From: Lenzites betulinus
Taxonomy: Eukaryota > Basidiomycota > Agaricomycetes > Polyporales > Polyporaceae
NCBI GenBank assembly: GCA_022264855.1
Contig: JABYQU010000008.1
Location: 372,001 to 436,000, forward strand
Direction: 5' to 3'
Length of the DNA: 64,000 nt
Positions 23,636 through 54,160 of the stretch are shown here, piece by piece (within the stretch, counting starts at the first letter, position 1; each line of letters opens with the position of its first letter). Position numbers and translations under genes: made by a program. The notes beneath the pieces were generated by a model that worked only from the letters and a program-made list of their open reading frames with translations, was not told the origin of the DNA and did not search any database.

Positions 23636-24195
23636 CACAGGGGGCATTCACCAAAGTTTCCGAGGAAAACACGGCAAAAACATGCCATTGAATGAAAAAC
23701 TATTCCTGCCATATTCACTCGTCGAACACGGTGGGAATATGACGGGAATATGTTAAATGTTCGTTTACCCTTTTTTGGCATGTTTCCCCGACAAAAACGG
23801 CGAAATTGTAATATATTTTGGTGCCATTTTGACTTCGGAAACATGGCGAGGAACATTGTGGGAACATGTGGAATATTGTGAGGCGTGTTTTCGCAGAGAA
23901 CGTGGCCACGATATCGCGAGAACATATACAATATTACCCATGCCATGTTCTCCGCATGTTTCTCGCGAAACAATGGCACAAATGTACGATAAATTTCCCC
24001 CGTTCTGCCTCAGAAAACATGGCACCGCAACATTGCGATGTCTTTCGAAACACTCTCGCCATATTCTCCGAGCCAAAACGTCAGATAAATGCCACAAAAA
24101 TATCCAATTATCCCTCCATGTTCATTGTCATATTCCCCCCTTAAACATGACACTAATTTTTGATTAACTCTCTGACATGTTTGCGGAAGAAATAT
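23636..24195 (+). repeat. Left subterminal repeat / MITE-like copy
   Basis: The outer end is intact (CACAGGGGGCATT); the inner end stops at AAGAAATATGCC, lacking the last terminal bases. The core at about 23,702-24,130 appears identical, base for base, to about 53,639-54,067. It is full of short motifs such as GGAACATGTGG, GAAAACATGGC and CATGTTTCTCGCG in both directions. Open frames in it are not genes. Confidence 0.75.
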
Positions 24196-24624
24196 GCCAA
24201 GGCGGATTCGCGTCACGAATCATCCGACGACTCGTATTACGACTCGCTCGTCGATTCGTAGGTTGATTCTCAACCCGACACCTGCCTCCCCCTACCGCAG
24301 CATTAAACCTGGAGCTACGTAGATACCTGGAGACGAGGATAAGTTGATGTCGCAGGTTCTATGTCACATGGACCTGGAGCCCAGTGCAACGGCCTGAAGG
24401 CGAGGGTAAGTTGATGTTACAGGCGGGCGGTATGTCACTCGAGGGGAAACTGAACGTGTGGGAGGACAGATCCATTCAGGTTCTTCATAAGTAGTGGCTG
24501 ATAGAACTATCACTCCTATGTAAACTCCTATGTACAGTAGCACGAGGTCCGGACGAAACGGGCGTCGCCATAAGACCCGTGTTGGGCAACTGTACGTACT
24601 CGCCCCTGGGCCCATCTGCCCCCT

Positions 24625-24717
24625 CACTCGAAGCACGTCCCCCCACTCGAAGCACGTCCCCCCACTCGAAGCACGTCCCCCCACTCGAAGCACGTTCCCC
24701 TCACTCGAAGCACGCTC
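24625..24717 (+). repeat. 19-bp minisatellite, five units
   Basis: Units of CACTCGAAGCACGTCCCCC start at 24,625, 24,644, 24,663 and 24,682; a slightly altered fifth starts at 24,702. The array lies just inside the left end of the element. Confidence 0.85.
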
Positions 24718-24846
24718 CCTGCACCACCTACCAACCTTCCTCCGCCTTCGTGAGCCTGCCTTGCGGATACCTGTATGATAGGTCGAGATGAGCTGCCGTG
24801 ACGCTCACGACGATGGCCGTCAAACACCTACCTGGATGATCGTGAT

Positions 24847-25934
24847 TCACTCAGCGTCCATCGGCTCTGTTGCCATCCTGATGCTCCGAAGAAAACACGC
24901 CTGCTTGTATAACACGTCGAAGTAGGAGCTGGCGACAGCTCGCACGAATCCGAGGGGGTAGGGATCAATCGAACGAAGGGACATCATCTCGAATGACGGC
25001 TGTTCCAAATCCTCGCTCAGAGCATCGCGGAGCGAGGTGAGGCCGTCGAGAATGGACGAAACGATGGCTTCCGCACGGAGGAGCGGGATAACGGGGTTGC
25101 AAAGCGCTTGTGAGGCGCGCCATATATCGATTTGCTGACGGAAGTCGTCGATTGTCGTTGTGATGGCTGAGGCGACGACTATAGCCCGATCCACGGCATT
25201 GATTGCGTGGTGGGCGGAGTTGGAAGAAGCGTCCTTCGACAATGAGATAATGCGATTGAGTCGGTAACTAGTGGGCTGGCCGAGGTAAACGCCGAAGATG
25301 CCGCCTTCATCGAGGTGCTTGAGGCCTGAGATGACGGAGCTCTGCATGAAGGTAATCCTAGGCAATCGTCAGTACGGTGTTGATCGTCTCACGGGCTGGT
25401 GAATGCATACCGTGTTACAGCAATCTCGACATGGATGAGGACTTCGTGAAGGGATACGGAGAGGTCTCGAGACGAGGTGGCAATGGCGGAGAGGACCTCG
25501 TCGCTGGTGGTGCTCACGTTGGAACCATCCCGCCCGAGGTAGACCCAGGCACCGCACTTGAAAGTCTTGTTGACGACGGAATTGATAGACTGAATGGCCG
25601 TGAAGGTGCTCGGAGAGGGCGCGTTCCAGATTAATCCATCGGTGTAGATGCGCGAAGACTCGATGAATTCCTGCATCAGGACGCCACTGTTGTCGATGGC
25701 ATCCGACGCGGGACAAACGGCAGAAGTGAGGGGTACCGGTAGGATGAGACAAGCCATCGCGATGCCGACCGCCAGGATCGACTGCGACGCATCCGTGACA
25801 TGCGAGGATAAGGTCTCGACTCGCACATCGACGCGCATATAGCGGTTGAAGAAGAAGTAGGGAGTGAAGATGTCGAACAAAGGGATCACCCAGGCAATGA
25901 AGGGGATTGCGAGGACTAGCCAGGCGTACCGCAT
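24847..25934 (-). CDS. Hypothetical membrane protein (cargo gene)
   Basis: From ATG 25,934 the product starts MRYAWLVLAIPFIAWVIPLF, a strong signal-anchor or membrane segment followed by a second hydrophobic patch (FDIFTPYFFFNRY). A further hydrophobic run is SILAVGIAMACLILPVPL. The rest looks helical, with cysteines and possible N-glycosylation sites. One short GT-AG intron near 25,360-25,400 joins it to the second exon ending at 24,847, for about 340 residues. An open frame just upstream (26,253-25,957) might be an additional 5' exon, but I could not place splice sites. No family is recognised. Confidence 0.55.
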
Positions 25935-26777
25935 ACTTGTGAGATGGTAGGAATGTTTATTGTTGCAGGTCTTGAGATTCCCGTAGGTGAGGCGAAACGC
26001 AGCGTTCTGTAGAGACGACTGAGAGTATAAACCGAAAGGGCGTGAGTGGCACATCCTTGAGGCGAATGGTTTTGTATATGGAGACGCACGTGACGTTGAT
26101 CACCGCGCGATTCCGACTCGTGCTTGCTCGCTCGCGATGGTCCAGGTCTAGGGCGGCGAGCACGGACAGTCGTTCCGGAATCGACGATGTCACCGATGCT
26201 ACGGGCCGGAAAACATGGCGTACTTTCGACGGAATGGCGGTCGGTGGAATCAACGAAATACTTAGAATAAGATATTACCCAAAAAGATGTACACGGTTTG
26301 ACCTACAGATGTTTGTGGATTTATGGACGGGTGTGGACGGGTGACGTGCGCTGGAAAATCGTCCTGCGGCCCTCTATAGCATCCTGTACGGGTTTTGAGT
26401 ACATGAGCCATACTGCCGGGGGAACACACCTGTGTGACAGACCAGGCCGTTAGAGTAATGATTACCACAATTTCTTGCGCGGTAGATTCAAGAGAGACTG
26501 TCTACCTCGTTCCCTGCATGGTGGTATGGGAAGAGGTTGGAACGCGCGACTAACGATCTGTTCAGGCACGTTCAGGAATCGCACGATAAGCGCTTGTGTG
26601 AGGGCGCCTGTCTTTTGACACGTGCTCTCGCACTTCCACCTCAAGCTAAGTCGTCCCCCGAACGTCAAATGCGTACGTCCGTCGTCCTCCAGCAGTAAAA
26701 CATGCATTATATCAAACGGTGAGAGATGACATTCAAGACGTGTGCAGCAACCCCCCAGCAACACCACTACACTTCAA
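25935..26777. other. Intergenic, no gene recognised
   Basis: Contains the open frame 26,253-25,957 (minus), possibly an upstream exon of the neighbouring gene. Otherwise only short frames. Confidence 0.4.
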
Positions 26778-28083
26778 TTAAGCAGAAAAGGCTCGAAGGA
26801 GCAGTTCGCCCTGGCGGAGGAGGGCAACGTATTCCTTCAGGGTCTCGACAATCGGGTTGGAGAGCTGGAGTGCCTGCAGGTAAGAGATTGACGAGGGTGA
26901 GATTGGTGAATACGTACCTGCAACATCTCTCCACTCTTGGCGCAAATACGCTCGTACGCGGCGTATGCATCACGAAGCGTACGGACTTCGATCTCCTTCT
27001 TGTAAGGGCCGGGGAGTGTGCTTGGAGAGGTAACCGAAGAAACCTCGAGTATCTAGATAGGGAGATTAGAGGTTGAAACCAAACGAAAGAAATCCATACT
27101 CGCTTCAAGAAGGCGAAGCGCCGCGTCGTGAGCTTCCTCCTGGGCGAGGATACGTTGAAGAGGCGCGTCGTACTGCTGCAGCGCTCCCAGGTAGTCCGAG
27201 ATTGGGATGTATTCCGACGAACGCTCAAACCAGGTCATACCATGCTGGACAGTGAGGTCGGCGCACTGCGCAAGTACGTCCTTCCGCTCTTCGGCCAAAG
27301 ACAGGAGGAGTTGGAAGAGCGGCTTGACTTCCTTCTCAACTTCCTCCTTCGTGACCTTGCGGGCTCCCAGGGTGGTTTGACAAAGCTTAACCTCACGCTA
27401 CGCATGGCGTTGAGAGGAAACGATGTAGCGATAGAGATACGACATACCTCATATGCGATGACATAAAAAGACGGCTTGAACTCCCTGAACTCGTCTTTCA
27501 GGGCTTCGGCGTCAGCCGAGAGTTTCTTGAAAGAAAGCTCCAAGTCCGGCAGCGACTTGCGAATGAATACGCGGTCGGCGAGGGAGAGCTGTCCTGCCTC
27601 AGAAAGTTGGCGATGAAGAGTGGTGAACTGGTGGAGGAATGAGATCATGCAGAGAAGAATGTTGGGCACAGGACGAACCTCGCCGAGAAGCGACTTCATA
27701 ACCCGATTGTTCTCCAATGCGCCGATTATCACAGAAAGTACGCGCTTCATGGCCACCGATGTTTCGTGGTCGTCCTCTTCACCCCCATCGGCGTAGAGGT
27801 GCTTAAGGCTGTGCGACGCGGTGTATAGATCCTGTTTGACGCGAAGTCGGTATTCTTTGTTCTGAGATACTACGTGTGACGCGAAGACAGCAGTCCATTC
27901 ATTGAAGTCGGCGGGAAGTAGGCGAGTTTCGCGCAGCCTATGGCAAGCATTAGTCCGTGTTTTTGAGCAGTATAAGAATACGGACCTGGTAATACGCTGG
28001 TCGAGGGCCGAGGCGGCATCGCGTACGCTGTCTTCTCGTAGCTGAACCCCACGAAAAGCCTCTTCGACGCCGATAACGTTCAT
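26778..28083 (-). CDS. Cargo gene C' (helical protein, unknown)
   Basis: Reads from ATG 28,083 (MNVIGVEEAFRGVQLREDSV) through several exons; the longest open stretch covers about 27,930-27,455. It ends ETLKEYVALLRQGELLLRAF before the stop at 26,778, about 360 residues. Predicted mostly helical, with a central hydrophobic helix (ILLCMISFLHQFTTLHRQL). Start and end both resemble gene C at 45,910: V-VE-A with spaced E and R at the N-terminus, and IVETLKEYVALLRQ against LIQTLRESVAVLQD at the C-terminus. I therefore treat them as distant paralogues in inverted positions. It is divergent from the gene at 28,426, with 342 bp between starts. Confidence 0.6.
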
Positions 28084-28425
28084 TTCGTAAGCACGCGGAA
28101 GGGCGACGATGACGGAGGTCCCTTGGAGAGCAGGACGATGAGTAAAGTAGAAGATGGGTGAAGTTAACTGAGGAGGCGGGCTTTATGTCGGGGTCAGCTA
28201 TGTGAGGGGACGGTGCCACTGGTCACGCTCACGCCGTTCGCGGCCACCACGCGACAAGGAACGCGTGCGAGATCAACTGGAAAGGAAGGTCACAGATTCA
28301 CACTATCTGCGATGTAGCTTTCAAATTAAATCGATACGACCTCGAGAAGGAAACAAGGCTACTCACCTAGCCAGCAGTACATAGCCCGTCGCTCGAGGAG
28401 CCAAAGAAATATCATACGGGTGCGG

Positions 28426-29342
28426 ATGATGGCGGGACTACTGCCACAGGGCGAGATGCTTGTAGTGCGACTCTTGAACATTACAGATTCGTCCTATGGG
28501 CCGACGCGGTAAAGGAGCATCTGTATACCTCTATGGTCAATCTATGGCCGGGTGTAGGAATGACATACAGCGGATCCAGCGGCCGTACCATTGGTACTAG
28601 TAGCAAGAAGAACAAGTCACTTACCCATGGAGGCGAATCAGCTTCCGAAATCAGGTGATGTTACCCATTTATGGCTAAGTTAGATTCTTAGCGCGATTAA
28701 ACGCCCGACGCTCCTCCTACTCAACGACATTACTTTCAGGTTGCACCTCTATCAGTACGTGTCATCCTCTGTAACTCAACCTCACTCGCTCCTCTTCCGG
28801 CAGCGAACTACGTCTTAGCCTGGGACGTTGCGGTTGTCCGATACCGCATCCCCAAGATCACTGCCGGTCCCTACTTAAGAATCCGCTAAATCAACACATG
28901 GATGTTCTTGACGGGTTTGTCGCCAGCGAATTATGTGGTGTGGCATTGTTAAAGCCCTGTCCAGGAGAATATTTGTCACGGATCTCGCCTTTCGAAATCG
29001 TCAAGAAGAACGCGCACATTTCGAGGCTCTCACGGCTCGTCTCCAGACCTTAGCAAGCGTCCATAGCGAGCTTGGGGCGACGCTCGAGGTCTTACGTGAG
29101 ACGTACTCAGGTATTGGGGCTCAAATCCTCCAGCTCGAGATATACATCTCAATGTTGGCCTCGGAATACCCCGAAACCGACATATCCGATTGCGACGGTC
29201 AACGAAAGCATGGTCCGCACTCCTCGGCGAGCAAAGGAAGCCGTCGTTGGAAACACAGGCTGAATGTAAGCTACTCTGCTGTTGTTTTGATAATTTCTAA
29301 CCCCTATGGTAGGGCATCTTGAAGCGTGTGGCTCGCAGATAG
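28426..29342 (+). CDS. Cargo gene B'' (possible third B-family member)
   Basis: A plausible start is ATG 28,426 (MMAGLLPQGEMLVV). Spliced exons give SSGRTIGTSSKKNKSL, RLHLYHELRLSLGRCGC and LLKNPLNQHMDVLDG. The main coding stretch, about 28,990-29,274, reads HSELGATLEVLRETY then ILQLEIYISMLASEY and DISDCDG, a zipper-like helix with an acidic end. A last intron leads to the stop at 29,342. LNQHMDVLDGFVASEL resembles LNQHTRVLRNVVDEL of gene B (41,733-42,717). The junction near 28,930-28,990 is unresolved, so this could be a pseudogene or a mis-spliced model. Confidence 0.4.
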
Positions 29343-30206: not shown

Positions 30207-31277
30207 TCAAAACATGAGCTTGGCAAGGACAATGGTAGCGTGGATGGCGAAGTATACGACGAAGACGGTGAGGACGAGATGGACAACCAGGACGACAGCG
30301 GAACACAGCGAGCGCTTCTTGAAGTAGCGGCCGGCGTGGAACATGAACGTGTCGAAATCTTGCTGGGCAGTATCAGAGGTCAGGGCCTCTGGCAACTGAG
30401 CGGCGATGGCTTGGAGCTGTCCAAGTGAAAGCGAGGGGCTGAGGTCGTCGAGCGACTAAAGCAGAATTGAGCTTCGATGCTGGAAGCAAGCACGAGCTAT
30501 GAACTCACCTCGCCATCTGCGCGACCGACGAGGACGACACGCGCCTCGAGTACATTGCTAAGGCACTCGCGCTCGATAAACCCTACAGAAGATGAGAACA
30601 CCTCACAGGGTTACAGGGATGTCAATATACGAACAAAGGAGCGCCTTCATGAACAAGGCCCGAAGGTCGGCTTCGGGGATCGTCAAGTCGGGACGTTCAT
30701 ATCCAGCCGACTGCAGCATCTACGAGTGGAGTTCCGTCAGTGTTGGCCCGAAGGTATGGTGGATTTACAGGAAAGACGATGCAGCCTACCGCAACCATGG
30801 AGATACGGGAATCGAGAACGTCGGCGAGGAAGCTGGCTGTGGTAATTGCAGAAGGAAAGAGAAGCTTGCGGGAGGTATGATCCTCGCAGTCCTCTAGGTT
30901 GTCATGCAAGGAAAGGCGGTCGCCTTCAACGAGCGGTTCAAAACGGTCCCCGCGGTGGGGCGTTCGTCCACGTTGAAACTCGAGTTGGATACCCTAATAA
31001 AACAAGGGAGATGTCAACCAGCCGCGTCTTAACGTACCAGCGCGAAAATTACATCGAGATGGTCATCAAAGGAACCAGGCGGGACGGTGCGTCCTCGAAC
31101 CGGCTCCAACTGGTCAAAGTCCTCGGCGTCCACGTCAATGGCACTATTGACAGTCGCACCCCTGAAGGGAGTCGCGCGGTCGGGATCGTAAGAAACGTAG
31201 ACGCGGCGGCGGGGGACGTCGGGGAGGAACAAAGTCTTGTCAACGTTGTCGCTGTTGTTGTTTCTCGCACCGGACAT
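30207..31277 (-). CDS. Cargo gene A' (tail-anchored-like membrane protein)
   Basis: Starts at ATG 31,277 with MSGARNNNSDNVDKTLFLP. Exon 1 continues through the acidic segment IDVDAEDFDQLEPV to an intron at about 31,036. The next exon encodes RFEPLVEGDRLSLHDNLED and FLADVLDSRISMVAVGC, then ERPDLTIPEADLRALF, and finally LSLGQLQAIAAQLPEAL and a strong C-terminal membrane helix (AVVLVVHLVLTVFVVYF) just before the stop. About 300 residues. One exon junction near 30,560-30,610 could not be solved in frame with canonical sites, so a frameshift or an unusual intron is possible. Divergent with B' across the duplicated 1.41-kb intergenic region. Confidence 0.6.
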
Positions 31278-32665
31278 GGTTGGCGTTTGTCGATCGACGA
31301 GGAGAGGCTTTGAAAAGATGGGCAGAGAGGCAGAGAGGTTCCCAACAGTAGGGCGTACGGAGGGAGTGGTTAAGTGGGGAGGAGGGAACAGCCCAAGTTA
31401 TGAGGGCGGACGTCTGTGCCGGGAGTGGCACCTTGCTGTCGGAATCGACCGAATCTCGATGGAAATACCGGCTAAGCTGCTGTCTGTCCGCATCCGCATT
31501 AGCTGTCCTGAAGTCACAATCGAGATGGAGCTTCTCACCATGTTTCGATACGCAGTCTAGCCTGCTGTACAGCTTCTCGTTGCGCTCACAGGGCCCGTGA
31601 TCACCGTGGATACGTCTATGTAGCTGGCTTTCGCGCACGCCACACACCCGCTCAGGCTCCGGGTGGCACACAGCAGCACGATGCAGACGCAAGGACGGGT
31701 AGTCAGGTCCTCTGCAACCCGGGGGGCGGTATGGGCTCACCACGATGTCCCCACGAGGACTTCGGGCATGGCACGAATATTGTGGTCCAAACCATGGGCT
31801 GCTGTAGGGCGTTCGAAACGATCAGGGATTCGACTCGTTACCGATGAGACTAACGGAGACGTACGGGCTGTTTGGAGGCGAGCATACTTCAAGTTATGTT
31901 GCGATTCTGCTCGAGGTGGTTCGGGCAAATCATGGCGTAGGTACCAGTGACGGGGCCGCGTAGGGCGCGCACCAACACGAGGCTTTCATATCGCGAGCCC
32001 CGCCTGTGAAGAGGGTTCCAGCATGTATCGACTCGGGCCGATTTGTGATGACCAACTCTCGGCGGTGGAGAGGCCTTGAGCGTGTAGATGCTAGGAAGAG
32101 CTCTTGTTAGCTACAGAACGAGCTCATAAAGTCTATAACTCACCTGCGTAATTTTGACGAACACAGATGGCATACGCTGTTAATCGGCGCCGACGTGGTG
32201 TAAGGAGATGAGTGTCGTAACCCGAATCGCCGCAATTTCTTGATTGGCATTTGGTCACTAGTCACGCAAGCGCCCCGCAATTGGGGGAATCTGGTCACAA
32301 TTACGCTCGATTTGGAGTGACAAACTCACATTCTGTCCCCTTTAGGGAGAAATGTCACGCATCGATATTCTTGCACAGGGGTCCGGGTTGTTGGTCCGCT
32401 GACCCTAACCTGAGCTTAACGGTTCGGTAACCGTTATGCCACGCTGTAAGTCTTCACTCTTCGCTCTCATGATGCATGGCAGTCTTCACGCGCAAGCCCT
32501 GGTCGCAGACCGCGCTGTATACCAAGATGCAGCCTCTCCTTCTCCTTTGTCCTCTGCGCTTTCTACATATGTCATGCTGCGGCTTGCCCTCCTCGTGCTC
32601 CGTCGCCCCGTCCACCGATTCCCCCGGTTCTTCCGCCTCTAGTACGCCCTTTGTCCACCCCTTGC
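31208..32665 (+). repeat. Left copy of the 1.46-kb inverted repeat (A'-B' intergenic)
   Basis: Inverted copy of 42,740-44,198. It covers the first 69 coding bases of A', the whole A'-B' intergenic region and stops about 22 bases before the B' start codon. By eye the two copies differ only by one G in a homopolymer near 31,726 (six here, seven in the other copy). Homology in the coding sequences on both sides drops abruptly. It must contain both promoters. No long conserved ORF explains the identity. Confidence 0.9.
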
Positions 32666-32687
32666 CCGTCTGTAACTCCTCTCCGCT

Positions 32688-33664
32688 ATGTCCCAAATCT
32701 CCTGGCAGTTCCGTGACCGTACGTTCCCGCAAATGTTCCCCTCCTGAAAGACAGTCATTGACGTCTCTCCCCAGGTCTGCAGCAAATTCTTGCTGAGGTA
32801 GTCAATCGCGACGACGTCTCGATACCCTACCGAGACTTGGCATATCTCAGTTGGTTTTGCGTTGACTCAGCATGACCAAGTACTCATCGTTCTGCAGTGC
32901 GTCCTCGAAAGCTTCGCAGCTCCCAACACCGGGATTCCCCATACCGCGCTGCTATCAGAGCCGCGGTAAATGAAGAGGTAGACGCGTCCGCGTCCGTCTA
33001 AGCTCACGCCGGTGTTCTTAATGCCCTCGCCACAGAAGTTTCTGGGACGCGTCTTTGTCGATTTTCACTGCGACCCGCCTCTCTTGTATATCACTCCCCT
33101 GGGCCGATTGTTGTACGTAGAGCAAGGCCGAGGGACCTGCATCGTCTGACACCACCTTCATGCAGCTACATGGACTTAATCCCACCTCCCGCTGTCCGAG
33201 CTACACGTACCCCGCCCCGAAGAAGCATACACAATCGCGTGACACAGTAAGCACGTTTATACAACCCCAGCATCACCACCCTCACCTTTCTCAGGCTGTC
33301 ACTGATTACCTCGAAGCGGCTACCCTTGTCAAAGCTATCCAGAAGGTCATCGGCGCTCATGGTCCCTTCGGTGTGGATATTCCTGACGTTCCGCAGCTGC
33401 CGCAAACGGTGCGTCTCTTTCGTGCGATACTTACCCGGGCACTCAATCAAAACCTGCAGATACGCTCTATGCTCGAGAGCGAGCAAGCCCTGCGTGCAGA
33501 GGTATTTCGCAGAACGTAGCTCGTGTTATAATCTTCAATTACTGACTTCCATGGCTATACAGAACTGCGATTTCGTCCTCCAGCTTACCGATCTCAATAA
33601 TGAAGTCGACGAGCTACATGCGCGTGTAGGGAAGGGTAGTTCCAGCGCCGTACAGTTGGAGTAA
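32688..33664 (+). CDS. Cargo gene B' (small protein with zipper-like C-terminus)
   Basis: Eight exons, all GT-AG, about 207 residues: MSQISWQFRDR; LQQILAEVVNRDDVSIPYRD and so on; then segments with PYRAAIRAAVNEEVDA, KFLGRVFVDFHCDPPLLYIT, DYLEAATLVKAIQKVI, the 14-residue exon starting IRSMLESEQ, and the last exon NCDFVLQLTDLNNEVDELHA. Exon sizes and several motifs match gene B (41,733-42,717): LQ..L after exon 1, PRYREHIISAVKREV against PYRAAIRAAVNEEV, a 14-residue penultimate exon in both, and a final exon starting N with a leucine-rich helix. No known domain is recognised. The helix suggests dimerisation. Confidence 0.65.
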
Positions 33665-33967
33665 GGTGCCGGCGTAACGCCGTGTCGTGTCCGCGCCCGT
33701 AATAGCTGTTTGTGTGTATTGCCATTTTCCTGAACAGATTGTATCAATCGTATGTATGCTGCAACTTGTTTTATGTGCTCCCCCTTCGCCCGTAGGCCCC
33801 CTGTGATGGTGCGCAAGTGTAAGACGCGCTGTCGCGCCGATTCTTGTTTTGATCACGTGCACCTCCGCCATCCTGCAGGCAACCGCCTGGGATAAGCAGT
33901 GGCAACATGCGCTGGGTGCTGGTCTTCACTCTTCTCATCTGACGGCGCGCTCGAGCTTAACTCTACT
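33665..33967. other. Short intergenic region
   Basis: Nothing recognised; presumably the promoter of the WD40 gene. Confidence 0.4.
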
Positions 33968-39103: not shown

Positions 39104-39363
39104 TGCAGCTTTCAGCCTCGCGTCGTCACACCGCCAGCATCCGCATCGCCCTCCACCTCACCCCTCCCCGCGGCTCTTGTATGCGTATGCATCATCTCCT
39201 GTCTATCCTGCGTTTCGGCCTCCGTATCATCGCTCATGCCCACCGTTCGAAGGTAGTAACGCTGCAACAACGTCAAGTTCTCCATCGGCTCGCTATTTGT
39301 CACAGAACCCTACGCCACACACTTATTTGTGCACATCTTGTCGCGCAGTACACGTTCCTTGTT

Positions 39364-39458
39364 CTCCCCGCCGTTACTTCTACTCCCTGCCGTTACTTCT
39401 ACTCCCCGCCGTTACTTCTACTCCCCGCCGTTACTTCTACTCCCCGCCGTTACCCCTA
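39364..39458 (+). repeat. 19-bp minisatellite, five units
   Basis: Units of CTCCCCGCCGTTACTTCTA start at 39,364, 39,383 (one C to T change), 39,402, 39,421 and 39,440 (end altered). It lies just downstream of the preceding gene's stop codon. Confidence 0.9.
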
Positions 39459-42717: not shown

Positions 42718-42739
42718 GGCGAAGCAGGATTGCAGACGA

Positions 42740-44198
42740 GCAAGGGGTGGACAAAGGGCGTACTAGAGGCGGAAGAACCGGGGGAATCGGTGGACGGGGC
42801 GACGGAGCACGAGGAGGGCAAGCCGCAGCATGACATATGTAGAAAGCGCAGAGGACAAAGGAGAAGGAGAGGCTGCATCTTGGTATACAGCGCGGTCTGC
42901 GACCAGGGCTTGCGCGTGAAGACTGCCATGCATCATGAGAGCGAAGAGTGAAGACTTACAGCGTGGCATAACGGTTACCGAACCGTTAAGCTCAGGTTAG
43001 GGTCAGCGGACCAACAACCCGGACCCCTGTGCAAGAATATCGATGCGTGACATTTCTCCCTAAAGGGGACAGAATGTGAGTTTGTCACTCCAAATCGAGC
43101 GTAATTGTGACCAGATTCCCCCAATTGCGGGGCGCTTGCGTGACTAGTGACCAAATGCCAATCAAGAAATTGCGGCGATTCGGGTTACGACACTCATCTC
43201 CTTACACCACGTCGGCGCCGATTAACAGCGTATGCCATCTGTGTTCGTCAAAATTACGCAGGTGAGTTATAGACTTTATGAGCTCGTTCTGTAGCTAACA
43301 AGAGCTCTTCCTAGCATCTACACGCTCAAGGCCTCTCCACCGCCGAGAGTTGGTCATCACAAATCGGCCCGAGTCGATACATGCTGGAACCCTCTTCACA
43401 GGCGGGGCTCGCGATATGAAAGCCTCGTGTTGGTGCGCGCCCTACGCGGCCCCGTCACTGGTACCTACGCCATGATTTGCCCGAACCACCTCGAGCAGAA
43501 TCGCAACATAACTTGAAGTATGCTCGCCTCCAAACAGCCCGTACGTCTCCGTTAGTCTCATCGGTAACGAGTCGAATCCCTGATCGTTTCGAACGCCCTA
43601 CAGCAGCCCATGGTTTGGACCACAATATTCGTGCCATGCCCGAAGTCCTCGTGGGGACATCGTGGTGAGCCCATACCGCCCCCCCGGGTTGCAGAGGACC
43701 TGACTACCCGTCCTTGCGTCTGCATCGTGCTGCTGTGTGCCACCCGGAGCCTGAGCGGGTGTGTGGCGTGCGCGAAAGCCAGCTACATAGACGTATCCAC
43801 GGTGATCACGGGCCCTGTGAGCGCAACGAGAAGCTGTACAGCAGGCTAGACTGCGTATCGAAACATGGTGAGAAGCTCCATCTCGATTGTGACTTCAGGA
43901 CAGCTAATGCGGATGCGGACAGACAGCAGCTTAGCCGGTATTTCCATCGAGATTCGGTCGATTCCGACAGCAAGGTGCCACTCCCGGCACAGACGTCCGC
44001 CCTCATAACTTGGGCTGTTCCCTCCTCCCCACTTAACCACTCCCTCCGTACGCCCTACTGTTGGGAACCTCTCTGCCTCTCTGCCCATCTTTTCAAAGCC
44101 TCTCCTCGTCGATCGACAAACGCCAACCATGTCCGGTGCGAGAAACAACAACAGCGACAACGTTGACAAGACTTTGTTCCTCCCCGACGTCCCCCGCC
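42740..44198 (-). repeat. Right copy of the 1.46-kb inverted repeat (B-A intergenic)
   Basis: Mirror copy of 31,208-32,665. It includes the B-A intergenic region (42,718-44,128, 1,411 bp against 1,410 bp on the left) and the first 69 coding bases of gene A. Identity ends about 23 bases before the B start codon and just after codon 23 of A. Confidence 0.9.
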
Positions 44199-45302
44199 AC
44201 TCCCCCTTTTCTTACGATCCCGACCGCGCGACTCCCGCCACTGACGACGCTAATGATCGCCCTCAATGCCGAGGATCTGAGTCCCCGCGCGACGTTCTGG
44301 ACGATGAGCGTAACGTACGGGTTTCCGCTTTCCGCTCCCTTTTTTACTACGCTAACATGCAGCTATCAGTACACCGGCACCGTTGTAGTATCTCGTGGCG
44401 CCGTCTTGACTTCCACGGTGAGGTTCAGTCTTCCTTAGTCACGCCAACTCTCTCACATCGTGTTGCGTGCATATGCAATCGTCCTGCAGGTCACCTACAG
44501 CGACCTCCCGGACGGTTACGATCGCGTTGCTGGCCAGACCAGAGCCGCCCTCGTTGTACAGGGTCGCGACCCTGTCCTTGTCCCTCAAGGATGGGTTCGC
44601 TTCATTGAGAACCCGGACAGCCTCGCCGCCTTAGTGGTGAGCCTCAGGCCCGTAGAGTCCCTGTTGTTTTTAACGCTCCCTAGGTCTCTCCAGGCCGGGA
44701 CGGCCACTACCGTCCGGTCGTCGGGATAACCCATCGCAAGCTGCGCTACGTCCTTCAGGATGCTATCGACTGTGAGTGTGCTTTCCGTGGCACGTATTCT
44801 GCTGTGCTTATCTCTGCCCAGGGTACCTTAAGGAGAATGACATCGACGGTACATCCGTGAACGCTACGTTCATGGAGATCGACGACGGTGACGTACGTCG
44901 CCGATTGCCTATACGATGGTCTCTCATCTGACACAAGTGCTATAGGTCGCCATCAGGCGTAAGACCCCAACCGGAGTCAGCTACATGCGCGTCCTCGCCG
45001 CCGATCAAGACTTCTTCGCCCCCATTCCCGAAGTATATGTGCCCTCCCTGTTCGGGGACATTGCGATTTTCCTCACCGTCGCAGGCATCGTACTCCTCGG
45101 GTATCGGTGTGGACTCAATGTCCAGAACGTCCTCCGCGTGGGGGAGACCCTGTACGGCAGCTTCCCCGCGATCACCGATTTCTACATGGAAATCACTATC
45201 TTCGCTAATCGCCTGGCGCTGTACATGCTCAAGGTCGTCGGGAAAGTTGTCTTGCGCGTCGATAACGTGCTCGCTCTCGCGCGGGAGATGGCGGAGCTCT
45301 AG
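44129..45302 (+). CDS. Cargo gene A (membrane protein; 5' end out of frame)
   Basis: The first 23 codons (MSGARNNNSDNVDKTLFLP and so on) are identical in DNA to A'. The following codons keep frame to about 44,240, but the clearly coding continuation (MIALNAEDLSPRATFW, from 44,253) is in the +1 frame. Later exons read YTGTVVVSRGAVLTST, YSDLPDGYDRVAGQTR, HRKLRYVLQDAIDWY, AIRRKTPTGVSYMRVLAAD, and a hydrophobic stretch DIAIFLTVAGIVLLGY near the C-terminus. Either translation starts at 44,253, or the 5' end was overwritten by the A' copy and is now frameshifted. NAEDL resembles DAEDF of A', supporting distant paralogy. About 300 residues. Confidence 0.6.
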
Positions 45303-45909
45303 GTTCACATTGTTACGCATGTACTGTATCCTGTCCCTGCTCTTGGAATGTACCATATTGTTACGGCTGCTGTTCAAATCGCGTACGGCTTCATTGGGTT
45401 GGGATATGGACGTTCCGGCTGCCTGATACCGCCCAGTGCTCGTGAGCGGAGCAGCCGGGCCGTACTACGCGTACTACGCAGTTACCGGCGTCCGATGCAC
45501 CTTAGCCCCGTCTGCCAGCTCGACCTCCCATCTCCGTCTCCTACCTCCCACCGCTCTTTTCCTGTTGCATGTATCGTATGGCTGGTATCTTCTGGTATCC
45601 CAACCTCTGCTGCGTTACGCACGAATCGTGTATCTTGCAGCAGTAAGTATGCTGCGACGGTCTTCGGATACACACCCAGTATACTAGACGGACAAAGCAA
45701 CCTCGGTTTGGCGAATCTGCGAACAATGTCGCTACCACTGGACGCTGCTGTTCCGGAGCTCGGTAGTATCGCCGGATATGTTCTAGGCACCCACGCGTGT
45801 GAGTGGCACTCCTCCTCACAATATCAATATATACTCGTAAGGACTTTCGACAGCCTCATACACACGCCGCAACCATCACCACCGCTCAAACCTACCTTGA
45901 ATCCATACG
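45303..45909. other. Intergenic between A and C
   Basis: Long plus-strand frames here (from about 45,348) are unspliced read-through with poor composition. No gene is supported. Confidence 0.4.
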
Positions 45910-47205
45910 ATGGTCTTAGTCGAGGACGCGCTCGCTCTCGTGAACGAGAAAGAGATTGCTATCAGGACTGCTTGCTGCGATTTCGATCTCGCGATGAATC
46001 GGTACGGATATCCTTTGTACTTAGTCCTGGTACCGGTACTCATGTTACTTGCCTTACCCTCAGTATGCGACACACCCTCCAGTTGCCTATTGCCCAACAG
46101 GGGTGGCTTTCGGCATTCGCAGACCGCATATCCTTTCTCAACAAGCAGCACCGTTACGCAGTCAAGAACGACATGCAAGCACTCTCGACTCGCCTGCGAC
46201 AGATACACCGCCAGCCTAACACCACTTCCGGTGCGTTATCCTTGGAACATCGTGTCCAGGCAATGGCGAGCGCGGTCGGCGAAGCCAAAGTATTAATGAA
46301 AGAGGTGAGCTCCCGTTCAATATCTCTCTCATGACCTTCCCGTCATCTTCATCCAGGTTGAGGGACTATATGACGCACGAGTTCGTCAGAAAACCCTCGG
46401 CGCCGCCGATCGAGTGCGGCTGTGCCGTGCCATGCCGCGTCTACGACTTGACCTTCAGCAGGCTGTCGACTCCAACTCATCAATCGGGAGCAAGCTCACT
46501 GACTGGAAGATTTGCTTTCGTATCCTTACTTCCGAGGTAAGTTATGACCTTTCTAGTACGTGTCCCATCCAGACTCATTATCGTTGCCTGTCCAGTCGTA
46601 TATGTCTAGATTCCTCGCCACGCTACAATCCTACAAGGTTTCGAAGGTAATCGCGGAGGAGAAGGCTGCTCCCATCTTTGAGCGCATCATCGAGCTCCAG
46701 GAGGCTCGCGATGCCATCATATTCGAAAGTGCTGCGCTCGGAATATCCCACGAAGCGTCCTGGCTCGAGCGTGGTGACCGCGGGATCCGAGATCGCGAGG
46801 TTCGCCGCGAACTGCGCAAGTATGACGACTTGTTGCAGAAGGCCAAGTTACAGCAGGCCGCGCAAGCCGAAGCCCTGAAGCAGGCAGAGGTACGTTCCTC
46901 CTGCTCCTGGTACAAATTTGACGGCTGATTTCCAGCCGCCTAGGATCTGGCCAACTTGGCGTTCTCCCCTGCGAGTCTTCCCGGACCGGACGGCGTTGAT
47001 TTGCCCTTCGACCGCCTACGCGAGGCGTACTCACAATACCAGCAAGTTCAAACTGCTTGCGATACTCTGGAAAATGTGAGTGCGTATCATCTGGCTAAGC
47101 AAATGTCTAACAGCCCGCTAGGCTATCGGCACTCTCATTCAGACCCTCCGAGAGAGCGTCGCGGTTCTGCAAGATGCTTCGCCCGTAACTTCCGGGATCG
47201 TGTAG
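45910..47205 (+). CDS. Cargo gene C (coiled-coil/helical protein, unknown)
   Basis: Start MVLVEDALALVNEKEIAIRT at 45,910. Later exons encode GWLSAFADRISFLNKQHRYA, VQAMASAVGEAKVLMKE, VEGLYDARVRQKTLGAADRV, SYMSRFLATLQSYKVSKVIA, a charged helical exon (REVRRELRKYDDLLQKAKLQ), and the last exons ending LIQTLRESVAVLQDASPVTS at the stop 47,203-47,205. About 370 residues, strongly helical. It resembles C' at both ends. No domain is recognised. Confidence 0.6.
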
Positions 47206-47641
47206 GCAGTGGTCTGATCGTGGCGGAGTTCGATGTTGAATACGTGTCTGTTGCTCGTATATGCTGCTGAATAACAGTTACTGGGTCTTGCGTAGTATGT
47301 GTGGCCGTTTGCGTCGAGTAGCGATGATCATGTTGCCGCGGGCTGTCGTTAAATCGGACAGATGCGAAGGGGTTTTGATCCTCCAAATTGTGCCTATCTG
47401 AGCCTCGTTTTCCATCACTGTGGCGAGCTCACTCAACGACCCTCGACATACCTTGGTTTGCACTGTGACTATCGACCGCTGCACTCGAGGTCACGGTCGC
47501 TGGGCTTCCCAAGGCACGATATTCAGACTATCTACTTCGCGATTCACTGATGACCTTGTTCAGAAGGCTGACAATCGCAGCGCTTCGGGTGAGCTGCTTG
47601 AGCTTTGAGCTCCAGTCCTCTAATGCTGACGACAAAAAGAC

Positions 47642-50600
47642 ATGAGTAACAAGCCCAGCTCCGCAACGGCATGGCGACACAAACGATGGGCACGATTGAG
47701 GGAGACTTTGGCCGACCACCAGGCCAGCTCAATCGCAGTCCCGTCAAATCCAGGTGGTTCGGCACGGACGGAAATCTCTCTGGTTAAGAGGGAACCGTCG
47801 CAGAGCAATTGCGACCCTTCCCAGAAGCCATCTCTGTCACGTCCCCCTTCCCCTATCCCCGCTGCTCCATCTGCCCCCCCACCGAAGGTCGCGTCCCGCC
47901 TGGACGATCTTCTCCATATCCATCTTGCATTCCTCCAAGGGATGGTCTCCTTTTCCGCGCCGAGACACATACTGCATTTCATCCTGAGCCCTCCCAAGGA
48001 AGGAGCGTTTGAACCCTGGAGCGTTCAATCTGGCAATCCGTGCAATAGCGGCAAGTGTTCTCTGCTCCCGAATGCGTCTCAGAATGGCCACTTCCTCGAA
48101 TATCAAAATTGGCTCACGGCAACATATATCTTCTTGAAATCCATAGATACCGAGCACGACAAGGAAGTCGACACCTACAGGCGCGGTCTGACAACCCAAG
48201 TACTTGAAGAACTAGATCGTCTCGAAAGCCTCAAAGAGTGGGAGTGGGAGAGGCAAGCCACGGCGTCGCCTGACACCAGTGCTGATCATCATGAATCGCG
48301 ATTCATGATTAATACCGGTGCGTCCCGCAGTATGACTTTGTACTTCAACTGAGCCTACCACCGTCATGTAGATAGTCACAACGCTGTTCGGTGGAAATCG
48401 TGGACGGCCGAATCTACTCCTGTTCACGCTTATTCCGTCGTGTCTGCGACCTCAAATCTACTCCTCGGAATCTCTCGAAAGTCCACTGGTATATTGATGG
48501 GTGGACTACGGAGCACCATCCGACTAGCCCTGGAGTACGCACGAGCACCGGATCCGCTGCTTCCGCGGGACCATCGTCTTCTTCGACAGCTCGCTCGGGA
48601 TCCTCGAACTGTTCTTAGAGCCCTGGATCTCGATCCTCACATCACGACCTACAATTGCTGTTCCCAGTGCTTTGCTTTGTATGATCTCAGCGTCCCAACT
48701 CCCCTCACATGCACCGAACGCGCAGCGCCTGAGAGCCCCCCATGTGGTGCAAAACTTCTTCGTCGACGAAATATTGGCGGACGCAGCATATCCTTCCCAG
48801 TCCGCAAGTATCTCCACCAATCGCTCAAACACTGGCTGGCCCGGATGCTATGCCGTGAGGATATCGAGGAGTGGTTACAACGTCGTCGTTGGAACGATGG
48901 GAGTGTCCGCGTACCTATGCGGGATATCTTCGATGGAATTGCACTGCAGTCCCTCCTCGGTCCCGAAGCGGGTACCGCCTTCTTGGACGCTCCTCCGCAC
49001 GAGCTGCGACTCATATTCTCCCTCTCTGCCGACGGCTTCAATCCGTACCAGATGAAGGAGGCGAAGCACACAGTCACCAGTACGGCGATCTATATGATCT
49101 GCCTGAACCTTCCAGAACACTTGCGTTACCTCCCCGAGAATCTCTACTTGGTCGGCGTCGTCCCTGGTCCTACTAAGCCTTCTACCACTCAAATCAATCA
49201 CTTCCTAAAGCTCGTCGTAGACGACTTTCTCGACTTCTGGGCACCGGGAGTGCAGTATACGAAAACGGCTCTCAGACCTCAGGGACGGCTGGTACGCGCG
49301 GCGATTGTCCCGTTGGTTGCGGATCTGCTCGCGGCTCGACAACTTTCTGGTTTCGGACCTCATAATCACAGTCGTGTCCTCTGCAGTGTTTGCACGGCGC
49401 TCGCCGAAGACGTCGAAAACACGGATCCGGAAACCTTCGAGCCACGCAACCTGCAACAACATCGCGCTCACGCACAGGCTTGGTTAGACGCCCCAACGAC
49501 GTTTGACCGCGAGAAGCTTTTCGAGCGGACTGGGATCAGATATACTCAGCTCCTCCGCCTAGAGTATTGGAACCCGTTCCTGTATACTGTGGTCGATACC
49601 ATGCACAACCTTTATCTGGGCCTTCTACAGCGCCATGTCCGCGTAATCTGGGGAATAAACGTGGATATCGAAGACGGCGACGCGTCGGGCCTTACCTCGA
49701 CCTCGGTCCCCCCACGTCCGTCAGAGGAGAAGATGGCGCAAGGCACAAGTCTCCTACTCAACGCGCGTGCGGAGCAGTTGCGCCTTGCAGGCAAGGCTGT
49801 GCTGTATCACTTGTGTCTCGATCGTGGCATACGACGCGCCGGCACTGTCTCTCAGCTGGTGAAAAACTTGGTTGCGTGGGTACGAAATACGAGTTCCACG
49901 CGTGCGAAAGGCTGTTAACACATCCACGTTCATAGCGCAAGAAGGAGGCATTCCCGATTGAGCGACAATCACAACAAGTACTCGACGCAGGTTAGTCGCG
50001 ACACTTCGTCGATTCCTTCTCGTCGGTTCTACGTGATGTTTGCTTACTAAGATGCTGCCCTAGATGACAAACTTGCGTCTCTGTACGGAGACGAGCTCAC
50101 CCCCGCGATTCGAGCTGCCGAGAAGACTCTCCATGGGGCCAAAGCGTCTACCGCTCTTGCGCGCAAAAAGAAGGACGTCTTACAACGGATGTGCGCTGCA
50201 CGCACTCTCGACTCCAACGGCTCTAAGGAGCTACTCGCCAGACGACTCCTAGCTTGGGTCAGTAGACTCGGAGTGTTTTTAAGTATGATGTCTATACCAA
50301 CTTACATTCTATTTCAGCTAGACGAAGAAAAGCTTTCCGATACGTTGGGAAACCTTGTCAGTTATTTCGTCCGAGCACAAACTTTCTATACAGCTCACTG
50401 TCTTGTTAGATCCTGTCAGGTACTCCGGACGAGAATGCTGTTCGTAAATTCACCTGTGCCGGTAATGTTCTGAGTATAGATTGAAGCAAACTCATTGACA
50501 GCCCAATCCGGAGCCAACGGTCCAAGGATCCCGAGAGCACGATGCAAATACCCTTCGTCGTCAGGCGAGTGCACGCTATTCTGGTTGGTCGACAGCGAAG

Positions 50601-52045
50601 TTGACATGGTAATCTCGCATTAGGACCCGACGAGCGACATATCCGAGGGTGTTATCAGACACAACCAGGAAGCTATAGGCCGAGATACCCTCGATGCGTA
50701 TATGGAAGATCGAGCCTGCATGCAGCTGCCGAGCTGGGTGAATGCTCCGCCGGTCGCGTTCGGCACGAAACAGCACGGGAAGTTGAGCGCAGATCAATGG
50801 CGCACCCTGTGCATCATCAATCTCCCACTCACCCTCACCAGAACGTGGAGCTTCCAAGAGCCACGCCGCGTGAAAATGTTGGAGAACTTTCTAGAGGTTG
50901 TAGAAGCTATCGAAACATACGGTCTTCTGGAGATCGACGAGCGGCAGATCGCCGATGCAGAGCGACTGATGCGCAGGTATCTGGAAGGTATCAAAGAGCT
51001 CTACCACGGCACGAAGATTCAGCCGAATCATCATCTTGCCCTCCATATCGGCGTATTTCTCCGACTTTTTGGACCAGTTCACTCTTGGCGGTCATTTGCG
51101 TTCGAGCGTTTCAACTTCTATCTACAGTCGATCAACACGAATATGACGTTCGGTGAGCACCCCGGCGCGTGCGCGCGCGTTAAGGCACTTTCGACGATTA
51201 ATTATATCTCATACCTTGCAGGCGAACTCGAGATGACGTTCATGATGCATAGCTGTCGTGCCGCAAACCTGCGCCCACTTCTTCGTAGCCCAGCCGTACA
51301 ACGTTTCATGCACGAATTTTCCAAAAGCCTCTCAGCTGCCGACGGTGATGACCGCCGGGGAATGCGCCTTGACGCAATTTTACGCTCGACAACAGAAGAC
51401 ACTTCGCTGCCACAAGCTCGTCCATTCAAAAGCTCGCGACCTGCACCCCTAGAAGACGAAGTCTATGCGGCTCTCTTGGAGAGACTCTCCCTGCCGGGAC
51501 AAGATTGCGTCTACATGGATGAACGGCAATTCTATGTCGAGCGTCCCCCCGGAAAGCGCCCTCTTCCTCGCGTCGCGGTCCTGTGCTCGTCTATACCGAT
51601 ATCGGGCGTACTCTATAAGCCCTCTACCAGAGCTGCAGGAGACGGTAATATCATGTTCCGGCATCCCCTTCTCGGATCCAACCCACAACCCGGTCACATC
51701 GAAAAGATCATTCTTCACACGCGCCAGGATACCGGTGGCAAGGATATCTCGGAGAGTTTCATATACGTCAAACGCCTCAAGGCCCTCAACGCTCTCGACG
51801 CGTCTCTTGACCCTTTTCGTAGGTATCCCACTGTCGGAGGCCGACTCTACTACCGGTCGTTCGAAGACAAGACTTTGGTGCTTCGTGCGTGGGACATCAT
51901 CTCTCACTTCGCCTCAACAACTATGGATCACCTTGTGGTGCAAGTTCCAGGTGCCCTGGACGCGACGAAACACCATCCGTGCAGGATCAGCAAACCCTGT
52001 GTGCATGTTCGCCCTCTAGATAGGGTACGTCAAAGCTGCTTGTAA
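47642..52045 (+). CDS. TNP2-type transposase of a CACTA/EnSpm element
   Basis: Start MSNKPSSATAWRHKRWARLR. A 5' exon to about 48,315 is followed by an intron and a long exon with LVGVVPGPTKPSTTQINHFL, the TNP2 signature. The likely DDE residues are D in LSADGFNPYQ, D in VDTMHNLYLGL and E in FAFERFNFYLQSINTN (about 51,100). Between the second and third lies an insertion with a SAP-like helix pair (KKDVLQRMCAARTLDSNGSK, about 50,170-50,260). Introns are canonical (for example donor at GTACGA near 49,881). I see no inactivating stop or frameshift once introns are removed. Roughly 1,250 residues. It lies near the right end of the 30.5-kb element and probably mobilised it. Confidence 0.85.
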
Positions 52046-53590
52046 TGAACCACCGGTACTGATCATGCGGCTATACAAACAGCTCTTACGGGATCTGCGC
52101 GAACCAGACGGCGCAGACACAGAGGAGTCCACGCAAGCGTCGTCGTGACTTGGGCGCATCCACATGCTGTAGAGGTAGTCGATCACGGCGAGATACAAAT
52201 TCGTGGACGTCAGAGGCATGTTAGGTACACCGCAGCGATGACTGGTTTATGAACAGATGTATATGGATCAAGAACCAAACTCTGGAATCCCGTGCTCAGC
52301 GCTCAGCGTTCGAAGACTGAGCTGCACCCATATGTATCCGGGAGGCGATTCGACATTCCAGCCTCCCCTAAATCACCATTCAGCGGGCTACAGACGCCCG
52401 CTTGATGGGCGCGTGTCGGCCATGACTCCGCGCTCGCACACCTAGACTCCAACCACATCCTACGATACGGTTGACAGTACCCCTGCTGCTCAAAACAGGC
52501 ATCGGGCGACGGGACTAGCGCGCGGGCGGCGCATGTAAGGCCGAGCTTCGACCCTGGTAGCGCGTTGGATAGTGAACACTACGCTGCGGTCGAGTAGTGA
52601 GTGGAATGCGGCGTCAGGTACGTTCGGAAAAAGGGTCTCGTCTCTACCCTTATAAGCTAATACGGAATCACAGCTCGTATTCTGAATCAGCCATCCAAAC
52701 GTGCGAGTAAACTCACGGCAGATGCATGAATCAACTGGGAGAGAGTATGCCTGGGGAACACAAGTATGTCAGGCAGCCTCCGTCTCCTTACGTGCAGAAG
52801 TATCAAATCAGTATGTTGTCCTCGGTATGAGGGTGTCGTCGCCTATCGCCGCATACTTATGTTCCTCAAGACACCGACGGTCGTGTTCGCGCTGATCGAC
52901 GACATCGACTCGGCGGACTCGGACTTCACCGACGATATGGACAGATTCCAGTGCATGGAGGTCCCGTGAGTGACCGTGGCGACGTGGATCGCACTCCTTG
53001 AAGGTATGTATATTGATACGGTGTCGTGCAATCTTATGCACTTCTAAGCTCCCGCTCCGGACTCGCCCCGCGAGAGCGCATCTGACTAGCCTCATCAAAG
53101 CCACACGGTGAACCCTCCCCCCGAATTCCTACCCGCGGACAGTGCCGGATATCGCACAGGTGCGCTCCCGCGTCCGTCTTCAATGCTGTTACGAGAAACT
53201 TATCGAACATTACCAGTGGTTGGACTTGCGATGACGATAACACTACGACTCGAGCATATATGCATGACAGCGAGACGCTTTGGAGCTCGGCCAGATGCTG
53301 TATAAATACGTAGGCGGCCCCGCGGTCAGTAACATCATACTCACCTCGTTCGTGGTAGGCTCGTCGCCTGGACATCCAGATCCTCTCCGCATGTACCCAC
53401 TGCCACCGTATTCCAATCGATATCTCCGACTCCCTTCACTCACTGTTCTCCCTACTCCTTCAACCCCTTCGCCTGCCTATCGTCGACCTATATCATTTTG
53501 ACTAGCGCTTCATCACTCTAACTACGATTCTCTACGAGAGTCGCTTCACGAATCATCCAACGAGTCGTAAGAGGATTGCTGACCCGATTC
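52046..53590. other. No gene supported between transposase and right end
   Basis: Short frames on both strands (for example 52,216-52,016, 53,104-52,808, 53,375-53,034, all minus) show some protein-like composition but no splice-supported model. Near 53,545 the sequence TCACGAATCATCCAACGAGTCGTA resembles one just inside the left end (24,210). Confidence 0.4.
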
Positions 53591-54160
53591 TTGGTTGGAA
53601 TCGCGTGTTGCCATGTTCCCGTTGACAATATGACACATATTCCTGCCATATTCACTCGTCGAACACGGTGGGAATATGACGGGAATATGTTAAATGTTCG
53701 TTTACCCTTTTTTGGCATGTTTCCCCGACAAAAACGGCGAAATTGTAATATATTTTGGTGCCATTTTGACTTCGGAAACATGGCGAGGAACATTGTGGGA
53801 ACATGTGGAATATTGTGAGGCGTGTTTTCGCAGAGAACGTGGCCACGATATCGCGAGAACATATACAATATTACCCATGCCATGTTCTCCGCATGTTTCT
53901 CGCGAAACAATGGCACAAATGTACGATAAATTTCCCCCGTTCTGCCTCAGAAAACATGGCACCGCAACATTGCGATGTCTTTCGAAACACTCTCGCCATA
54001 TTCTCCGAGCCAAAACGTCAGATAAATGCCACAAAAATATCCAATTATCCCTCCATGTTCATTGTCATGGGCCTGCCCTAAACATCACGCTGATTTTTTA
54101 TCATTCTCTGTCATATTTCTGTCATGTTTTTCTCGAAGAAATTGCACAATGCCCCCTGTG
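53591..54160 (+). repeat. Right subterminal repeat / MITE-like copy
   Basis: The core at about 53,639-54,067 is identical to the left copy and in the same (direct) orientation. The inner end is divergent and lacks the terminal motif; the outer end is intact (AATGCCCCCTGTG ending at 54,160). Confidence 0.75.

Follow-up and report, generated by a model that had tools for sequence, protein, structure and literature searches.

A giant multigene CACTA/EnSpm-type transposon in Lenzites betulinus and a second complete relative in the same genome

We identified a 30,525-bp transposon in Lenzites betulinus that very probably belongs to a giant, multigene CACTA/EnSpm DNA transposon family. The element occupies positions 23,636–54,160 (+ strand) of a 64,000-nucleotide stretch of contig JABYQU010000008.1, hereafter the window, and was delimited by its ends, a 3-bp flank duplication and a collinear second copy. 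Because this second copy (C98:56,056–82,598, 26.5 kb) is complete, collinear and equipped with ends and a target-site duplication of its own, the window element represents an established family of giant CACTA elements rather than a one-off. In a mushroom-forming fungus, then, a CACTA-class transposon can apparently exist as an established giant with many genes, among them a recurrent core extending well beyond the transposase.

The element is bounded by a perfect 13-bp terminal inverted repeat, CACAGGGGGCATT (23,636–23,648, + strand; 54,148–54,160, − strand), which has no other exact match in the window. The resulting CACAG..CTGTG ends continue inward as imperfect inverted similarity (65-nt arms, 75%), and an AAT target-site duplication lies directly outside them (23,633–23,635 and 54,161–54,163). 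The C98 element has perfect 14-bp ends and a TGA/TGA duplication, while a 774-bp relative on C76 shows the same kind of ends with TCA/TCA, so that CAC..GTG termini and 3-bp duplications are found in all three elements. Counted in full 500-bp bins, AACATG/CATGTT, a putative binding motif, occurs eight times in the first bin of the window element, eight times in the last and zero to two times in every other; the C98 element is likewise enriched at both ends. The initial annotation had called a CACTA-type element from perfect termini, AAT flanks, a tnp2 transposase and motif-rich ends, all of which were confirmed in the window. Scanning the window for CAC/GTG pairs separated by 3 kb or more, flanked by the same 3 bp and differing at no more than 2 of 14 positions, returned four pairs, the reported one being the best (1 mismatch in 14, compared with 2 for each of the other three). 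Five 2-mer-shuffled controls gave 3, 3, 0, 1 and 1 pairs in the same scan; since shuffled sequences yield 0–3 such pairs, a lone two-mismatch pair is not significant. The strength of the element call lies in the longer end similarity and the second locus, not in the end pair alone.

The transposase gene (47,642–52,045, + strand) is of the tnp2 type and comprises several exons, with a visible start codon and 3′ exons that agree by eye with the database protein P0016. PF02992 (tnp2) matched ORF 48,353–49,918 with an E-value of 1.5e-12, scoring 47.6 bits where the cut-off is 28.6. The motifs SADGFNPY (49,025), ADLLAARQ (49,319), CSVC (49,382), HHLALH (51,029) and FERFN (51,101) appear to be those of a DDE-type enzyme, the putative catalytic residues having been assigned by eye. 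The exon structure rests on conserved exons and P0016; automatic splice modelling gave no model, as one intron lacked a candidate. We rejected an assignment to Plavaka, whose ends are TGT..ACA or CATCA..TGATG in the available text of PMC12730594: the ends found here are CACAG..CTGTG, and the Plavaka model scored 13.3 bits on P0016, below its cut-off of 26.3.

The coding blocks of the window and C98 elements are collinear and equally oriented, and the two transposases are 75% identical. In-frame stops in the matches to C98 tnp2, to gene B and to the WD40 gene may represent introns or decay. Among the roughly ten genes of the window element, a WD40-repeat gene (33,896–35,482, + strand; PF00400, E 1.8e-9), which is collinear in C98 and has further copies in the genome, gene B (36,948–39,103, + strand), encoding an orphan protein whose C-terminal region is conserved, and the orphan gene C (39,983–41,072, + strand) look like core element genes because their order is common to the C98 element and they recur near more distant tnp2 genes. 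We scored recurrence as non-self matches within 25 kb of one of 13 strong tnp2 matches, with a chance of 1.7% per site. This applied to 8 of 11 matches for gene B, 4 of 5 for gene C and 3 of 4 for the WD40 gene (binomial 1e-12, 4e-7 and 2e-5, respectively, values that assume independence among matches that are not fully independent); the other matches (3/11, 1/5 and 1/4) lay beyond that distance. For annotators, the orphan genes B and C and this WD40 gene, where they lie near tnp2, are probably to be treated as element genes rather than host genes.

Further regions common to the C98 element are a left-arm orphan gene (26,781–28,182, − strand), coding blocks at 28,912–29,319 (+ strand) and 42,169–42,606 (− strand), small coding blocks at 30,210–30,610 (− strand) and a right-arm gene (44,439–45,302, + strand); a right-arm orphan gene (45,303–47,267, + strand) is similar to the left-arm orphan gene. 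A Pfam scan of 32 ORFs (21 of the 28 ORFs of at least 150 aa, plus 11 shorter ones) detected nothing above the curated cut-offs besides tnp2 and WD40. Gene B had no match in Pfam or PDB, its AlphaFold model was poor (mean pLDDT 51), and none of nine Foldseek matches reached E ≤ 0.001; gene C likewise had no PDB match. A search for relatives in viral contigs gave five pattern matches, none of them confirmed.

These data divide the earlier proposal of one giant unit that had brought a gene cargo between host genes. The single CACTA-type unit with its own transposase stands and has a counterpart at a second locus, but the gene cargo is not supported: most conserved coding blocks occur in the same order in C98, and three genes recur near more distant tnp2 genes. 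Most of the supposed cargo would accordingly be read as element genes; the left-arm ORFs at 24,847–26,099 (− strand), membrane-like by eye and without a match in C98, could be cargo. Recent capture of neighbouring host genes by an ordinary CACTA element is very unlikely, even though WD40 is a common host domain and the large block adjoins a conserved ThiF-domain host gene (22,729–23,541, − strand; PF00899, E 1.6e-8 in ORF 22,729–23,355), whose start codon, placed by eye, is some 95 bp beyond the left end of the element. The gene set and order shared with an element whose transposase is 75% identical, the recurrence of three genes near more distant tnp2 genes and the scarcity of Pfam domains in the 32 ORFs all oppose it; with the collinear C98 element, host-gene capture is largely refuted, leaving only the ORFs at 24,847–26,099 as candidates. 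The left flank matched only itself in the assembly, with no second allele.

Both complete elements carry two near-identical repeat pairs at matching positions. The terminal direct repeats of the window element (23,701–24,131 and 53,638–54,068, both + strand), delimited by exact match length and identity profile, are identical over 431 bp; this core, in direct orientation, bears out the 0.5-kb end copies of the initial annotation. The inner ends of these repeats look decayed. Not included in that annotation was a pair of internal inverted repeats of about 1.5 kb (31,167–32,692, + strand; 42,713–44,236, − strand), 99.0% identical over 1,528 aligned columns with 9 mismatches and 4 gap openings. 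The corresponding C98 pairs are direct repeats of 435 bp (99.8% identical) and inverted repeats of 2.0 kb (99.3%, 15 mismatches). Between the elements, the direct repeats reached 54% in a forced alignment (40–47% in ten shuffles), and the inverted repeats gave no blastn match at E 1e-3. Near-identity inside each element, with no recognisable likeness from one element to the other, points to within-element homogenisation. A nested separate transposon was rejected as the source of the 1.5-kb inverted repeat, which is found nowhere else in the genome and whose C98 counterpart at the matching position is unrelated. The full repeat-and-gene plan is shown for the closer pair, the window and C98 elements, which are the two complete elements delimited. 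At two more distant loci, stretches of 30 kb on C1 and 20 kb on C44 contained no CAC..GTG pair with a 3-bp duplication and none of the paired repeats of this plan, and the gene order on C1 differs.

Near-identical repeats are a known assembly risk, and our analysis rests on the assembly. Nevertheless, an artefact is the least probable of the explanations considered: the flanks differ for each copy, identity drops at the repeat edges, mismatches (9 and 15) separate the members of the internal pairs, and two complete loci show the pattern with repeats of different sequence.

A search for further copies of the 13-bp ends had been suggested earlier. Related elements were found on C98 and C76; two of three other exact 13-mer matches in the genome (C43 and C54) lacked further end similarity and are probably due to chance. 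The C76 element resembles a solo end and contains an additional insertion of about 190 bp. C17 carries a 67-bp stretch resembling the right end, with no left partner found within the 3-kb locus at up to 4 mismatches, and C74 a 64-bp fragment. The free-standing 774-bp element on C76, together with the 431-bp repeat at both ends of the window element, would suit two separate small non-autonomous elements flanking an unrelated block by chance. We consider this highly improbable, as the outermost ends have AAT in common and C98 shows the same kind of outer ends, an equivalent interior and a TGA duplication of its own. An ancient origin of the giant element from a pair of small elements is possible and fits the preferred reading of a giant CACTA family.

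Under that reading, the AACATG-rich ends would be recognised by the transposase, probably with assistance from at least one of the WD40, B and C proteins, and the 30-kb unit would move by a cut-and-paste mechanism. The plan appears composite-like, an interior set between two end-units of which only the outer ends are intact. If the direct repeats recombined, the interior would be lost and a single end-unit would remain, resembling the C76 copy, while gene conversion between paired repeats may keep each pair alike as the elements diverge.

The yeast 2-micron circle inverts via its own repeats. By analogy, a plasmid-like CACTA lineage might use the direct repeats to exit the chromosome as a circle and return to it, and the inverted ones to flip its middle, thereby amplifying beside transposition; this is unlikely, as is, to the same degree, its companion proposal that the core set (transposase, WD40, B and C) runs this second cycle. 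The four-part plan, which recurs in two diverged elements and has two near-identical repeat pairs in each, the solo-like 774-bp copy, and inverted copies of at least 3,937 bp, 100% identical, near a third tnp2 gene are consistent with such a cycle. Conversely, we saw neither circle junctions nor inverted isomers nor a replication gene, the middle is equally oriented in the window and C98 elements, and plain gene conversion accounts for the repeat identity. The two near-identical pairs make end-matching and circularisation of large DNA transposons directly testable.

The nearest known group is fungal EnSpm of the CACTA/EnSpm superfamily, CMC/CMCT clade; relative to its description in the available part of PMC12730594, the Lenzites elements stand out by their size (26–30 kb), about ten genes, a recurrent core and direct plus inverted repeats. 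Like Starships, the window element is a giant fungal mobile unit with several genes, but the Starship captain is by definition a tyrosine recombinase, whereas the enzyme here appears to be of the DDE type. The earlier remark that no such recombinase was seen holds for the 32 ORFs scanned (21 of 28 of at least 150 aa, and 11 shorter), which contained no DUF3435 captain; a genome-wide DUF3435 search gave no match, but neither did any of its 14 controls. Starships have been reported from the basidiomycete Tremella (PMC13066641, in the text available).

Oversized EnSpm elements, with several accessory genes in red algae, are described in the accessible sections of two papers: 16–20 kb with 4–5 ORFs in Chondrus (as cited in PMC6431247) and up to 15.2 kb in Ectocarpus (PMC12477816). 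They are smaller than the Lenzites elements, and those sections describe no such repeat plan. Giant KDZ elements (30.3 kb in Ectocarpus; 31.7 kb and active in Chlamydomonas), with accessory genes frequent in fungi, are likewise DDE-type DNA transposons of about 30 kb but belong to another transposase superfamily (PMC12477816, same sections). Soybean Tgmt (20.5 kb) and TgmR (13 kb) share CACTA ends, a 3-bp duplication, tnp2 and short subterminal motif repeats with the Lenzites elements; as far as the excerpts go, they have few ORFs, and their direct repeats are short motifs without a long identical pair (PMC2613891, PMC4219821). In beet Coe1, a tnp2 gene lies inside 169-bp direct repeats (96.4%) with CACTATAA motifs outside, an arrangement that the authors prefer to read as a transposon nested in an LTR retrotransposon, a reverse transcriptase pseudogene being present (PMC2426827, in part); by comparison, the 32 scanned window ORFs contained no reverse transcriptase or integrase. 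A long terminal repeat pair in CACTA is not described in the portions available of PMC4219821, PMC5659041, PMC8978399, PMC12477816 and PMC2613891, and no earlier CACTA report of this repeat plan or of this gene core was found in the literature compared.

A close parallel in repeat architecture is KolobokP, a group of composite-like animal DNA transposons whose solo repeats occur with duplications and whose long terminal direct repeats are, according to its authors, unlike those of any other DNA transposon (PMC9587614, in the text available). The window element similarly combines long terminal direct repeats with terminal inverted repeats, which would make such repeats a recurrent solution, but it belongs to another kingdom and transposase superfamily (tnp2, not Kolobok). 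KolobokP encodes a homing endonuclease, whereas no His-Me finger was detected in the 32 scanned ORFs; the same text does not mention internal inverted repeats, which are present in the Lenzites elements. A further difference is the decayed appearance of the inner repeat ends in the Lenzites element.

The window element spans 30,525 bp (23,636–54,160) and carries features that the initial annotation had described there: perfect 13-bp inverted ends, AAT directly outside both, and a TNP2-type transposase within. The transposase gene (47,642–52,045) carries a tnp2 domain (PF02992; 48,353–49,918), and the class motifs D, D, CxxC, HxxxH and E, assigned by eye following the pattern in PMC12730594, lie in the expected order from 49,025 to 51,115. 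The element agrees with CACTA/EnSpm elements in its ends, the length of its target duplication, its transposase and its subterminal motifs. The tnp2 domain was located by a Pfam scan of 21 of the 28 stop-to-stop ORFs of at least 150 aa, the other seven overlapping scanned ORFs in different frames, together with eleven shorter ORFs. Weak matches below the Pfam cut-off included one to the carboxymuconolactone decarboxylase family in ORF 30,846–31,313 (17.7 bits; cut-off 23). Among database proteins, P0016 from Lenzites betulinus showed 98% identity across 44% of the query, and P0039 likewise comes from L. betulinus. A ThiF-domain gene adjoins the element, which also holds two 19-bp minisatellites (24,620–24,719 and 39,353–39,453) of about five copies each with differing units.

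When the main exon of the transposase was searched against the genome, it gave 35 matches, 13 of them at E < 1e-70. The closest paralogue, with 75% identity and one in-frame TAG in the match, belongs to a second complete element on contig C98 (26,543 bp), bounded by perfect 14-bp ends CACAGGGGGCAATG at 56,056 and 82,598 with TGA outside each. Oriented like the window element, it is collinear with it over the interval that starts with the left-arm gene (26,781) and closes with the end of the transposase (52,042; peptides of at least 30 aa, E ≤ 1e-4), and the only out-of-order sense matches pair the two similar arm genes with each other. By the same peptide comparison, the window ORFs at 24,847–26,099 had no match in the C98 element. 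Roughly 240 bp beyond one end of the C98 element lies a 401-nt inverted repeat pair of 84% identity (C98:54,001–55,819), perhaps a neighbouring transposon.

Both elements share a plan of two repeat pairs. In the window element, identical 431-bp direct repeats (23,701–24,131 and 53,638–54,068) start 65 bp in from the left end and stop 92 bp before the right end, and 1.5-kb inverted repeats of 99.0% identity (31,167–32,692 and 42,713–44,236) enclose a 10.0-kb middle. The C98 element carries, at matching places, direct repeats of 435 bp (99.8%) and inverted repeats of 2,030 bp (99.3%) enclosing 9.0 kb. Identity drops off within about 100 bp of the repeat edges, and some older similarity persists beside the direct repeats. 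Between the elements, whose transposases are 75% alike, the direct repeats reached 54% in a forced alignment (40–47% for ten shuffles), and the inverted repeats gave no blastn match. Since the pairs are near-identical within an element but dissimilar across the two, each appears to be homogenised inside its own element. The arm genes (26,781–28,182 and 45,303–47,267) are similar and oppositely oriented, as if they were the decayed outer part of a larger inverted duplication, beyond the portion still kept alike. Each internal inverted repeat bears, by eye, the same ORF start, MSGARNNNSDN... (31,029–31,397; 44,009–44,608), reading outward into sequence that differs between the two sides.

At the sensitivity of our search, the window inverted repeat had no further genome copy, and the partial stretches on contigs C1 and C44 contained no such repeat pair, their self matches being tandem or near-by repeats. 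On contig C65, near a tnp2 gene at 945,475, the stretches 953,064–957,000 and 980,064–984,000 are copies in inverted orientation that match at 100% along at least 3,937 bp (the limit of the stretches compared), and hold copies of gene B, an orphan gene of the window element (36,948–39,103).

Including the window copies, gene B (exon 38,567–39,103) occurs at 12 genome places, the orphan gene C (39,983–41,072) at six, and the exon of the WD40-repeat gene (33,896–35,482) at five (E ≤ 1e-8). With self removed, 8 of 11, 4 of 5 and 3 of 4 copies, respectively, lie within 25 kb of a strong tnp2 match (one of the 13 below 1e-70; chance per site about 1.7%). Binomial values were 1e-12, 4e-7 and 2e-5, to be taken as indicative because the matches are not wholly independent. 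On this proximity, all three look like core genes of the element. Copies beyond 25 kb were those of gene B on C72, C64 and at C65:981,789 (36 kb off), of gene C at C65:700,224 and of the WD40 gene at C65:681,058. The latter two lie 19 kb from each other, have no strong tnp2 match within 60 kb, and are perhaps a decayed relative. The left-arm gene (27,235–28,182) matched only the window and C98 elements, placing it outside the wider core. In the window the genes run WD40, B, C, tnp2, but on C1 they run WD40, tnp2, C, B; gene order is therefore not fixed among distant relatives. Protein-database searches, one of which scored just the 7,998 candidates with the most words in common, turned up no gene B relatives beyond Trametes pubescens, T. 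versicolor and a single 'lgn'-source sequence. A large minisatellite array (C1:321,026–324,688) lies beside the copy of gene B in the C1 relative.

Large size by itself is no novelty, since giant EnSpm elements and giant KDZ elements, the latter of about 30 kb, are already reported in algae (PMC6431247, PMC12477816). KolobokP has terminal direct repeats similar to these, which its authors describe as unlike any other DNA transposon (PMC9587614); because KolobokP belongs to a different superfamily, the likeness does not make the present element a member. The nearest known case having a tnp2 gene is Coe1 of beet, where the gene lies inside 169-bp direct repeats. Literature searches of open-licence papers, several of them covering just the top-ranked results, gave no report of the repeat plan or the gene core in CACTA elements, which does not prove their absence.

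Most likely, the tnp2 transposase moves the element by cut and paste at its CAC..GTG ends. Helper proteins binding the AACATG-rich ends would probably assist it, judging from the motif enrichment and from descriptions of plant CACTA elements (e.g. PMC4219821). Gene conversion would keep the repeat pairs alike, and the repeats may additionally serve circularisation or inversion; the two complete elements carry their middle in the same orientation and so lend no support to frequent flipping. A 774-bp element on contig C76 (959,119–959,892), with ends of the same kind and a TCA/TCA duplication, looks like a solo copy: by eye it aligns with the window element's left end and onward across the direct repeat, and it terminates in a right-hand end. 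Less an insert, it would have the size that recombination between the direct repeats predicts; alternatively, it may be a simple internal deletion product. The insert, of about 190 bp, lies between the left-end part and the right-hand end and is bordered, by eye, by an identical 12-base sequence on either side.
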